The notes under the pieces were generated by a model. That model saw only the letters and a list, made by a program, of their open reading frames with translations, was not told the origin of the DNA and ran no database searches. Made by a program: the position numbers and the translations under genes. This document shows positions 2,283 to 11,979 of a DNA stretch of 64,000 nucleotides, one piece after another (position 1 is the stretch's first letter; every line of letters begins with the position of its first letter). Source of the stretch: Procambarus clarkii (lineage: Eukaryota; Arthropoda; Malacostraca; Decapoda; Cambaridae); contig NC_091181.1 of the NCBI RefSeq assembly GCF_040958095.1, positions 21,637,875 through 21,701,874 on the forward strand, read 5' to 3'.

Positions 2283-4079
2283 AGTAGTAGGGAGTAAGAC
2301 GCCCAGGTGATTTTTTTTTTCAGGCCAGAGATCACCTGTGAGGCATAAGACGCACAGGTGATATTTTGTTCGAGGACAAATATCACGCGTATGGCTTCGG
2401 GTTTTCAGGTCAAATATCCCGCATATGGCTTCAGGTTTTTCAGGTAAATTTTGTCAGTCACAGATTTTAGAATTTTGTCAAAGTTCTTATAATGAAAATA
2501 ATGTTATACGAGTTTGTTAAAGTTCTTATGATGAAAATAATTTCCGAGACTTTAGAAGTTTGTTAAAGTTCTTATCATGAAATAATGTCATACGAGTTTT
2601 GTTAAAAGTTCTTATTTGTTTCTTACTTAGAAACTTGTATATTGCTATATATCTGAATCATTTCACTGCCTCTCCCGCTCGTACCTCACACCCGCTCCCT
2701 CCCCCCCCCCCCCTTACCTCACAATATCTCGCGTCGCCTTTATTTACCTTATGCCAGCCAGCCAGACGCTGCATGCAGGTCACCTCTTATCTTATCTTAT
2801 CTTATCTTCTCCATAATATCTGGACCGTCCCTCTCTCTCTCTCTCTCTCTCTCTCCTTCATATTGTTCATTCATAGTTCCTTTTCATTAAACTATTCAGT
2901 TTTACATATATAAACAAAGTCAAGGGACTAGCTCATGTTCCCACCTTAGTTTTACTAATACATCTTCTTTAGTATCCAATCATTTTCTTCGAGATTTAAA
3001 ACACAGCTATTTCAAACGTATTAAAATACAATAATTTGGTATCGAGCTCCAGCTCCTATCCCCGCCTTAGTCCCCCTGTCGTATAATGAATACTAACAGT
3101 CCAATCCCTCTAAAATTTAAAAATAATCATATTTCAAACGTAGTTCAATACAGTAATTTAGTTATCGAGCTCCAGCTCTTGTCCTCTACCTTAGTTCCCT
3201 CTTGGGTCTTCGGTATTATCCTACCAAATTCCCTGAAATTTCTACCCTCTGTATTTCAGACGTAGTTTAGTAAATCCAAACAATTATCAAACTCTAGCTC
3301 TTGTCCCCCAGCTTAGTTCATTTGTACAAGATCGTTAGTAACAGATCAATTTCCCCCGAAATTTAAAGCAGACATACTTCAAAGTTAGTAAATAAGATCA
3401 AGTCAGCTACTGAGCTCCAGCTCTCATCCCCCACCCTACTCCACCCTCAAGTCTTTGTTAATATCCTATCAATTTCCCCAAAATTTTTTACCCTCTGTAT
3501 TTCAGACATAGTAAATAAGATGTAAACAATTATAAAACTCTAGCTCTTGTCCTCTGTCCAAGTTCACTCATGTAAATTCATTACTATCAGTCCAAATCCC
3601 CCTGAGATTTAAACACCCAACTACATTTTCAGACATAGTAAATAAAAACCAGTTCAGTTATCAAGTTTCAACTATTGTCCCCCAGCTTAGTTCATTTTGT
3701 ACAAATTCTTTATTTTCCAACTAAATCACCCTGAGATTTAAGATCACCTTATTTCTAACGAAGTAAAATTAATCTGGACATTAGCAAAGTTCCATTTCCT
3801 CAGTCTTAGATCATCGAACATAATTATATCCGATCAAGTCCCTCTCCAGCCTATCTGTTTATCAGAGTAATTACCTTACCCTCTTTGTCTTTCCTCAACT
3901 AAAATAGTCAAATGTAACTTTTTCAACACTTTCGTAACTAAAATTATATGCCGCTAAGTAAGAAAAATAGTCAAATGTAACTTTTTCAGCACTTTCGTAA
4001 AAATTATATGTCGTTAAGTAAGAAAAATAGTCAAAGGTGCTCTCCGTAACACCAAAGTTACTCTTCGAGATAACAAAAG

Positions 4080-5640
4080 ACACTCTCAAACACTCAAAAA
4101 TTTACTCGCATCCTCAAAGTTATTCTCAGTCATCAAAAAGTTAATCTCAGTCATCAAAATGCTATTCTCTAAGTAGCCTTTCATTCATCAGAGAAACTTT
4201 CTAAGACATCTTCGTTCATTAAAGTTAATCTCAGAGGCATAAAAGTTATTCTCAGAGTCATCAAAAAGTTAATCTCAGTCATCAAAATGCTATTCTCTAA
4301 GTAACCTTTCGTTCATCAGAGAATCTTTCTAAGACATCTTCGTTCATTAAAGTTAATCTCAGAGGCATAAAAGTTTTTCTCAGAGCTATCAAACTTATTC
4401 TCGATGCCATCAAAAAGTATTTTCTCGTTCATCAAAGTTAATCTCAAGAGTTAACAAAGGTAATCTCTAACTCACTTTCGTTCAACATATTAATTCTCTA
4501 AGTCCTCAAAGTTATTCTCTAAGACAACAAAGTTATTCTCTAAGACAACAAAGTCTTTCTAAGAGCTATCAAACTTGTTCTCAAAGTCATCAAAGTTATT
4601 CCAAGAGACGTCAAAGTTAATCTAAGACATCATCTTTCATCAAAGATATTCTCTCTAAGCCATCAATGTTCTTCTCTAAGACATAAATGTTATTCTCTAA
4701 GACAAAGTCTTTCTCAGAGCTATCAAACTTGTTCTCAAAGTCATCAAAGTTATTCCAAGAGACGTCAAAGTTAATCTAAGACATCATCTTTCATCAAAGA
4801 TATTCTCTCTAAGCCATCAATGTTCTTCTCTAAGACATAAAAGTTATTCTCTAAGACAACAAAGTCTTTCTCAGAGCTATCAAACTTGTTCTCAAAGTCA
4901 TCAAAGTTATTCCAAGAGACGTCAAAGTTAATCTAAGACATCATCTTTCATCAAAGATATTCTCTCTAAGCCATCAATGTTCTTCTCCAAGACATAAAAG
5001 TTATTCTCTATGTCATCAAAAAGTTATTCTCTATGTCATCAAAAAGTTATTCTCTGAGCTAACAAAATACTACTCATGTTCTCAAAGACATTCTCAAAGT
5101 CATCAAAGTTATTCTAAGAGCTATCAAACTTGTTCTCAAAGTCATCAAAGTTATTCACAGAGTCATCAAAGTTATTCTCTAACTCACTTTTGTTCATTAA
5201 AGTTAATTTCTATGTTATAAAAGTTTTTCTCAGAGACATCTAAAGTTAATCTTGCTCATAAAAGTTGTTCTCAAAGAAATAAAAGTTATTCTCAGAGACA
5301 TCTAAAGTTAATCTTGCTCATCAAAGTTGTTCTCTAAGACATAAAAGTTATTCTCAGAGTCATCAAAAGTTGTTCTCTAAGACATCAATGTTGCTATCTA
5401 AGACATCAAAGATGTTCTCTAAATCATAAAAGTTAATCTTTAAGTCACCTTCGTTCATTAGAGAAACTTTCCAATCCATATTCGTAGACCAAAGTTATTC
5501 TCAGAGTCATCAAAGTGATCTCTAATTCACCTTCGTTCTCCAAAAGTTGTTCTCTAAGACACCTTCGTTCATCAAAGAAACTCTCCTTCTTCCATCATGT
5601 TATTCTTTAAGACATCTTCAGTCATAAAATTTCTCTCCAA
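4080..5640 (+). repeat. Tandem ATCAAAGTTATTCTCTAAG repeats, left arm
   Basis: Irregular tandem units of roughly 25-32 bp built on ATCAAAGTTATTCTC. From about 4545 to 5010 they are organised as about three larger units of some 150-160 bp carrying GAGACGTCAAAG and CATCATCTTTCATC. The reverse complement is at about 8815-9780, with two of the larger units. Confidence 0.8.
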
Positions 5641-10400: not shown

Positions 10401-11979
10401 ATATTTACTATGTCTGAAATACAGAGGGTAAAAATTTCGGGGAAATTGATGGGTTATTTACAAATATACGAGAGAGAACTAAGTTGGGGACGAGAGCTGG
10501 AGCTCGAAAACTGTTTTGGTCTTATTTACGGTGTCTGAAATACAGAGGGTAAAAATTTCAGGGAAATTGATGGGTTATTTACAAAGATACGAAAGAGAAC
10601 TAAGGTGGGGACGAGAGCTGGAGCTCGATAACTGTTTTGATCTTATTTACGGTGTCTGAAATACAGAGGGTAAAAATTTCAGGGGAATTGATTAGATATT
10701 AACGAAGATACGAGAGAGAGCTAAGGCGGAGGATAAGAGCTAGAGTTCGGTAACTGTTTGCATTTACTAAACTATGTCTGAAATACAGAGGGTAGAAATT
10801 TCGGGGAATTTGAATAGGTATTAACGAAGATACGAGAGAGAGCTAAGGCGGAGGACAAGAGCTAGAGTTTGGTAACTAAATTACTGTATTGAACTACGTT
10901 TGAAATATGATTATTTTAAAATTTTAGAGGGATTGGACTGATAGTATTCATTATACGACAGGGGACTAAGGCGGGATAGGAGCTGGAGCTCGATAACAAA
11001 ATTATTGTATTTTAATACGTTTGAAATAGCTGTGTTTTAAATCTTGAAGAAAATGATTGGATACTAAAGAAGATGTATTAGTAAAACTAAGGTGGGAACG
11101 TGAGCTAGTCCCTTGACTTTGTTTATATATGTAAAACGGAATAGTTTAATGAAAAGGAACTATGAATGAACAATATGAAGGAGAGGGACGGTCCAGATAT
11201 TATTATGGAGAAGATAAGATAAGATAAGAGGTGACCTGCACGAGGCGTCTGGCTGACCGGCGTAAGGTAAATACAGGTGACGCGAGAGATTGTGAGGTAA
11301 AGGGGGGAGGGAGGGGTTTGAGGTACAAGCGGGAGAAGCAGGGGAGAGGCAGTGAAATGATTCAGATATATAGCAATATACTAGTTTCTAAGTAAGAATC
11401 CAACTTAAACATATACAGCCTAAATATCTGTTTATTATCAGTAGGAACTCTGAAGAAAATTCTCCCATAGGAACTTTAACAAACTCGTATGACATTATTT
11501 TCGTCATATGAACTCTTAACAAACTTCTATAATCTCAGAAATTACTCACTCATAAGAAATCCTTAATCCCAAATCTGTGACTCCCCAAATTCACCTGAAA
11601 CCCCCAAGCGCTACACGTGATTTTAGACCTCAAAACCCCCAAGCACTACACGTGATTTTTTCAGAAGTTGAAAACAGGCAAAATATGTCCGTAGAGTTTA
11701 TCTGGAAATGTTGTGACACAAACACGATATTTTCTAAAAATTTTCTTTAAGATTTTCCTACTTATTTTCCTCATAAGAACGCTTAACAAACCTCTAAAAT
11801 CTCAGAAATTATTTTCCTCATAAGAATTCCTTAATTCAAAATCTGTGACTCCCCAAATTAGCCTGAAAACCCCCAAGCGCTACATGTGATATTTTCAATT
11901 TACCTGAAAACCCCCAAGCGCTACACGTGATTTTTTCCCCAGAAAAAAAAATCACCTTTGGCGCTTACCCCCTACTACT
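7416..11979 (-). repeat. Right arm of the foldback
   Basis: Reverse complement of the left arm. Matched landmarks include GTTTGAACAGTGTAGTTC near 8720 (left 5730), CATTATACGACAGGGG near 10950 (left 3085), the AAGATAAGATAAGA block near 11215 (left 2795) and the end at 11979 (left 2283). At about 9780-10060 it carries a segment (ACATGAAAACATGACAAAG and on) that I cannot pair, so the arms are not identical. Confidence 0.85.
7960..8710 (-). repeat. TTAGG-like tandem repeats, right arm
   Basis: Mirror of the left-arm array, read as TTAGGTAAGATAGGTAAAG and variants. Confidence 0.8.

Follow-up and report, generated by a model that had tools for sequence, protein, structure and literature searches.

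Mavericks (Polintons) are known from vertebrates as elements of 12.7-24.6 kb in total length when intact, with terminal inverted repeats (TIRs) of 46-1,447 bp, a commonest end motif of 5'-(AGT)2//(ACT)2-3' and perfect 6-bp target-site duplications (TSDs) (PMC8097293). Duplications of 6 bp are tied to a retroviral-type integrase (PMC12220804). Here we describe a palindromic element of 9,697 bp that occupies positions 2283-11979 of a 64,000-nt stretch of the genome of the crayfish Procambarus clarkii (C32:21637875-21701874; C-numbers are contigs of that assembly), hereafter the window. The element transposes as a palindromic unit with 6-bp duplications, and it is in all likelihood a non-autonomous, non-coding derivative of Mavericks, mobilised and multiplied in trans by a coding Maverick that shares its ends. 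It shares with vertebrate Mavericks the (AGT)2//(ACT)2 ends, the perfect 6-bp TSD and the long TIR, and members of its crayfish family that measure 12.7-18.5 kb fall in the vertebrate length range; unlike vertebrate Mavericks, the window element is gene-less, consists almost entirely of inverted repeat and is 9.7 kb long (PMC8097293).

Other described systems resemble the element in part. Galileo, of the P superfamily, has TIR-only non-autonomous copies (2T and 2RT), and its TIRs grow via internal tandem repeats and the recruitment of inner DNA, inverted-repeat expansion being mentioned for Polintons too; it differs in its 7-bp flanking duplications, its P transposase and its TIRs of at most ~1.3 kb in D. 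mojavensis (PMC3573991). Tetris, a foldback element of Drosophila virilis and the source of a satellite, likewise has modular long TIRs with tandem repeats and no open reading frame, but its TSD is 8-10 bp, its TIR reaches 1.7 kb and its authors assign it to Mutator (PMC4079207). With the endogenous nimaviruses of crustaceans the element shares a crustacean host, the nature of a virus-like giant mobile element and arthropod telomere-type repeats. Nimaviruses are coding, their insertion sites are telomere repeats, 28S rDNA or AT repeats, and only the sesarmid ones possess TIRs, which are 46 bp long and of different sequence (PMC10871703); the TTAGG-like repeats of the window, in contrast, lie inside the element. 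An endogenous nimavirus, considered for the TTAGG-like array, was rejected, since nimaviruses insert into such repeats and are without such ends (PMC10871703).

Structure of the palindrome in the window

The palindrome was confirmed: the top inverted match pairs 4685-7068 with 9779-7412 at 98.07% identity over 2,388 columns, and none of 20 dinucleotide shuffles yielded an inverted match at E 1e-5. A previous sequence-only reading of this DNA had reported that the outermost bases of the two arms match, that the homology continues inward for about 4.6-4.8 kb per arm and that a perfect ATTCAC duplication flanks the whole. The outermost bases do match, both arms carrying AGTAGTAGGG(A/G)GTAAG with ATTCAC abutting each end, so that the element runs from AGTAGT to ACTACT. 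The inverted arms also exist, with whole lengths of 4.6-4.8 kb, but they are interrupted and not one continuous arm: an outer TIR of 1.6-1.95 kb is followed by a mismatching stretch (3901-4684 versus 9780-10025), then by the 98% inner pair and a 343-bp centre. The features are as follows.

2277-2282, no strand: left target-site duplication ATTCAC (from the window and the family pairs)
2283-2298, plus: left end AGTAGTAGGGAGTAAG, which fits the Maverick (AGT)2 end motif
2283-3900, plus: left outer TIR, boundaries approximate, made of subterminal repeats (2283-2640), unique sequence (2641-3030), 121-bp-type repeats (3031-3720) and unique sequence (3721-3900)
3901-4684, no strand: unpaired left-arm segment, without counterpart in the right arm of the window copy
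4685-7068, plus: left inner palindrome arm, 98.07% identical to the right one, containing 21/157-bp arrays and, at 5742-6487, a degenerate TTAGG-like array
7069-7411, no strand: asymmetric purine-rich centre of 343 bp, common to a second full copy on C2 and to three other elements at their mid-points
7412-9779, minus: right inner palindrome arm, with the mirrored TTAGG-like array at ~7994-8720
9780-10025, no strand: unpaired right-arm segment, without counterpart in the left arm of the window copy
10026-11979, minus: right outer TIR, boundaries approximate
11964-11979, minus: right end AGTAGTAGGGGGTAAG, as read on the minus strand
11980-11985, no strand: right target-site duplication ATTCAC (from the window and the family pairs)

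In their non-tandem parts the outer TIR arms are ~90-91% identical, and the outermost 340-600 bp can be aligned only with large gaps (85-92% outside the gaps in one alignment, 61% in another). The element is AT-rich, with a GC content of 0.32-0.38 by segment versus 0.44-0.49 in three nearby flank stretches, and its content is tandem repeats, namely the 121-bp type, the 21/157-bp arrays and the degenerate TTAGG-like array. Degenerate arrays of this arthropod-telomere-like kind (TTAGG/AACCT) lie inside both arms (5742-6487 and 7994-8720). No further pieces of the element were found elsewhere in the window (blastn, E 1e-3).

The ATTCAC duplication is indeed present on both sides, but on its own it carries only modest weight, given the CA-richness of both flanks. 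With 200 x 200 possible boundaries, 0.66% of the choices gave identical 6-mers, and random pairs drawn from flanks of 600 down to 60 bp did so in 0.19% to 3.4% of cases. Meanwhile, the register of the flanking minisatellite scores 23 after removal of six bases (one ATTCAC), 20 with none removed and 25 with three. It is the other copies, with 6-bp duplications of their own, that make the duplication secure.

Copies of the element elsewhere in the genome

The window's own assembly (4,027,284,227 bases, 4.03 Gb) contains 223 + 216 = 439 matches to the end 16-mer, versus 22 + 29 = 51 for a reversed control pattern. Pair counts cover 100 listed places of the 439, among which 23 inward-facing neighbour pairs (46 places) lie within 30 kb and span 9,266 to 18,549 bp. 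These pairs, together with the window element and a second full copy on C2, made up the 25 end pairs examined for duplications. A perfect 6-bp duplication is present in 21 of them and one with a single mismatch in three; the remaining pair, at the edge of a tandem end array, has none. Mismatched left-right combinations, used as a control, agree in 6 of 600. Two pairs on C1 represent a single insertion whose surrounding segment is duplicated (1,500 bp of flank are identical), and three pairs at C7:44.5-45.6M look like one insertion (shared flanks); with each insertion counted once, 20 of 22 pairs have a perfect 6-bp duplication. A 7-bp duplication, as in Galileo and the P superfamily, was seen in 0 of the 25 pairs, and none showed a duplication at 7 or 8 bp, Tetris and Mutator having 8-10 bp. 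The 5'-(AGT)2//(ACT)2-3' ends of Mavericks are found in the window element and in the C2 copy; the other 23 pairs are no independent test of these ends, because that motif selected them. The genome thus contains further elements that share these ends and have 6-bp duplications, which the sequence-only reading had proposed to look for.

The second full copy (C2:29989518-30002611) is 13,094 bp long, with the ends AGTAGTAGGGAGTA, arms of ~6.5 kb and CACCAC on both flanks, a duplication that proves little alone because it lies inside a (CAC)n stretch. The identity of its arms per 500-column block, indels excluded, ranges from 94.7 to 100% and is at least 99% in 12 of 14 blocks, the other two having 98.2% and 94.7%. 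Compared with the window element, its outer arm is 92% identical over 534 columns, and the arrays and whole centre are 88-96% identical. Pieces of the unpaired window segment 3901-4684 have counterparts in each arm of the C2 copy (best 94-95%), and so does segment 9780-10025 (82% over 181 columns). Since the unpaired segments are present in both C2 arms, the simplest inference is that the window copy is an older, shortened member of the family in which different pieces of a longer palindrome were lost on the two sides.

The mid-points (middle 1.6 kb) were read for five of the 23 pairs, L075-L079. Three of them (L075, L076 and L077, at C3:47.12M, C5:40.68M and C8:39.85M) are palindromic at the mid-point, with 99.8-100% identity, and their centres are 84-89% identical to the window centre and about 90-96% to that of the C2 copy. 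Because the C2 copy and three of the five elements read at the mid-point are palindromic with the same centre, the palindrome itself is the mobile unit. In total, five palindromes of 9.7 to 13.1 kb were verified, on five different large contigs, and many more end pairs are similar in length. In addition, when the 2-kb window flanks were compared with those of C2 and of eight more ends, scattered repeats only were shared, the nearest on the window side ~410 bp from the element edge; homology running past 2283 or 11979 into the flanks, which the sequence-only reading had named as a result that would speak against it, was not seen. Its claim that the palindrome moved as a unit and is no local inverted duplication is borne out by the copies elsewhere with their own 6-bp duplications.

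In a blind sample of the genome (twenty-four 10-kb stretches, 240 kb), part of the second full copy, the one on C2, was present in one stretch (L013). Among the best 60 rows of this comparison, L018 showed only a TTAGG-like array (L018:2368-2600), and L005 and L016 only short simple-sequence matches. Five exact patterns gave no other copies in IMG/VR viral contigs.

Three further loci of the family were observed. At C2:23500572-23517693, thirteen element ends in the same direction, spaced by 1,646 or 323 bp, form a tandem array built from a Maverick end, resembling a satellite in the making that derives from a TIR. On C1, one insertion with a 1,500-bp identical inverted flank occurs twice, ~250 kb apart (57692598-57704878 and 57945526-57957791; L028-L031), so that the region around the element is either segmentally duplicated in inverted orientation or an assembly duplicate. 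Three elements at C7:44506753-45648507, one of them inverted, have flanks in common and an identical imperfect duplication, CTTCCT/CTCCCT, and are probably segmental copies of one insertion.

Coding content, a polymerase-bearing relative and the remaining window

None of the 27 open frames of the window element (stop-to-stop, at least 60 codons, wholly inside it) has a Pfam family above the cut-off, the weak rows Band_3_cyto (E 0.17) and Duc1 (E 0.05) being attributable to chance, and no match came from searching protein databases with translations of frames from the TIR and inner arm. Because the genes of Mavericks (polymerase B, integrase, ATPase, protease and capsid) are thus lacking among these frames, the element is filed as a non-autonomous derivative and not as a Maverick proper.

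One element with the same ends, in contrast to the palindromes, appears to be coding. It is 16,140 bp long (L078, C9:33079804-33095943), has the TSD TCTCTT and shows no inverted match in its middle 1.6 kb. At its mid-point lies a frame of 361 codons in which we find the motifs KLISNGLYGK, YTDTDS and KPKTYS...KCKGIP, taken here to be those of a family B DNA polymerase, with its KxY motif, and the frame is matched by the DNA polymerase family PHROG_1907 (E 9.5e-7). The subterminal 104 bp beyond the 16-mer at its ends (L063/L064) align to the window TIRs with scores of 32-46.5, exceeding the best of 200 simple shuffles (maximum 19.5-27) in all four comparisons. Of the coding genes that had been expected behind shared ends, the motifs of polymerase B were therefore the part recovered, and to judge by its sequence this element is a coding relative in the same genome. 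Comparison of the polymerase fragment with viral contigs gave three pattern matches, none confirmed, and with solved structures nothing meaningful.

The window element has long TIRs and, as read with the family pairs, a 6-bp TSD. Together, the end motif, the duplication length, the long TIR and the polymerase-B-bearing relative are hard to explain other than by Maverick ancestry, and the proposal of a giant non-autonomous Polinton/Maverick derivative gains support from its ends, its 6-bp duplications and that relative. Several observations weigh against this assignment. The Maverick end motif is documented in vertebrates and not in crustaceans, and 54 of the 100 listed end matches are without an inward partner bearing the exact 16-mer. 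The 18.5-kb element L079 (C2:919860-938408) shows no inverted match in its middle and no recognisable coding capacity: a good part of its mid-stretch is made of the same arm modules, with most best matches at 93-99%, and its largest frame is without a Pfam family above the cut-off. In addition, the polymerase fragment is unrecognised by Pfam (a single row below the threshold, in the repetitive tail), its naming relies on the motifs and the PHROG match, and no integrase was seen within the ~1.96 kb of the C9 element that was read.

Outside the element, 40 longer, non-repetitive frames of the window were searched with Pfam. Reverse transcriptase (four frames) and retrotransposon endonuclease (one frame) were above the cut-off, one more reverse transcriptase row and CzcE were below it, and no Maverick genes were found in these frames. 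Fragments of non-LTR retrotransposons with these two domains lie at 14324-14864, 18431-19075, 31836-32396 and 40827-42780; the reverse transcriptase at 18431-19075 has relatives at 93% identity (metagenome source) and 61% (Procambarus clarkii). Large minisatellite arrays with units of 10-34 bp, ~1 to 4.8 kb each, fill much of the remaining window (12317-13282, 19521-21698, 22044-31138, 34741-37456, 48812-50003 and 54913-55943). The only Rfam match over the window is tRNA-like (53278-53348, 37.7 bits, over the gathering score) and is possibly the head of a SINE.

Origin of the palindrome and alternative explanations

Insertion of the window element was most probably carried out by a Maverick integrase acting in trans on the (AGT)2 ends. 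Since five palindromes share one centre, a single founding inverted duplication is pointed to. Near the centre, the arms within copies are 99.8-100% identical in three copies and ~99% identical in C2, whereas the same modules differ by ~2-16% between copies; because identity within copies exceeds that between copies, the arms appear to have been copied from each other. We tentatively suggest one ancestral head-to-head duplication followed by hairpin re-copying. A head-to-head duplication of an element end would have made the ancestral palindrome; the displaced single strand of protein-primed replication would then fold into a full-length hairpin and be filled in, and each such cycle would restore the identity of the two arms. 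The window copy would have been inserted long ago, lost different segments per arm and drifted to ~90% in its outer arms, keeping 98% only beside the centre, either because conversion acted there later or because this part is of more recent age.

It is also possible, although we would not call it probable, that the family is the same mobile one and that the similarity of the arms came only from chromosomal gene conversion after insertion, with no hairpin copying. Post-insertion conversion would give similar arms too, and hairpin copying is a proposal; the window copy, with 98% solely next to the centre and 90% in the outer arms, is what conversion might leave. In contrast, three other copies have 99.8-100% at the centre, and the C2 copy has 98-100% identity in 13 of its 14 blocks, out to the ends, which is simplest if the arms were equal at insertion. 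Under hairpin re-copying, the palindromes might be hairpin satellites of a Maverick, retaining only its replication and integration ends and multiplied by the displaced-strand hairpin, with one arm serving as template for the other in every cycle; the coding Maverick may be in competition with them or may package them. This last idea is speculative and is drawn by analogy. Defective palindromic genomes occur in other protein-primed linear replicons. A literature search for such genomes returned nothing direct.

An improbable alternative is a foldback element of a cut-and-paste superfamily, of P/Galileo or Mutator/Tetris type, with long repetitive TIRs and (AGT)2 ends by chance. The TIR-only copies of Galileo, and Tetris, do look alike in their long TIRs, internal tandem repeats and lack of genes (PMC3573991, PMC4079207). 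However, the duplications are of 6 bp in 21 of the 25 crayfish pairs and not of the Galileo or Tetris length, the end motif is that of Mavericks, and an element with the same ends carries a fragment of a family-B DNA polymerase; a P- or Mutator-type foldback was rejected on these grounds.

Large palindromes do arise locally, and the ATTCAC match is weak alone, but an in-place inverted duplication of local DNA with a coincidental end match has next to no probability, as it is already refuted by the second copy and the same palindrome, centre and ends recur at sites with different flanks and their own duplications. Near-perfect palindromes are also a known artefact of long-read libraries; an assembly-made inversion from fold-back reads is nevertheless very unlikely and was rejected, given that the two arms in the window are 2-10% divergent and have deletions specific to each, that exact 6-bp duplications are the rule among the pairs and that the same palindrome exists elsewhere with different flanks.

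We return to the palindrome as a Maverick derivative. Long repetitive TIR-only transposons are already known (Galileo and Tetris), whereas a gene-less palindromic Maverick family is apparently new, no description of a non-autonomous or palindromic Maverick, or of such a gene-less family, having been found in the open-access literature searched. Mavericks are usually viewed as virus-like and gene-rich; here the ends alone seem to have become founders of a family of gene-less palindromes. The family makes testable the cis requirements of the Maverick integrase, the replication of Mavericks through free linear or hairpin DNA, and the carriage of defective parasites by Mavericks, as by viruses. 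For crustacean genomes, in addition, it provides a concrete origin of giant palindromes and of satellite arrays.

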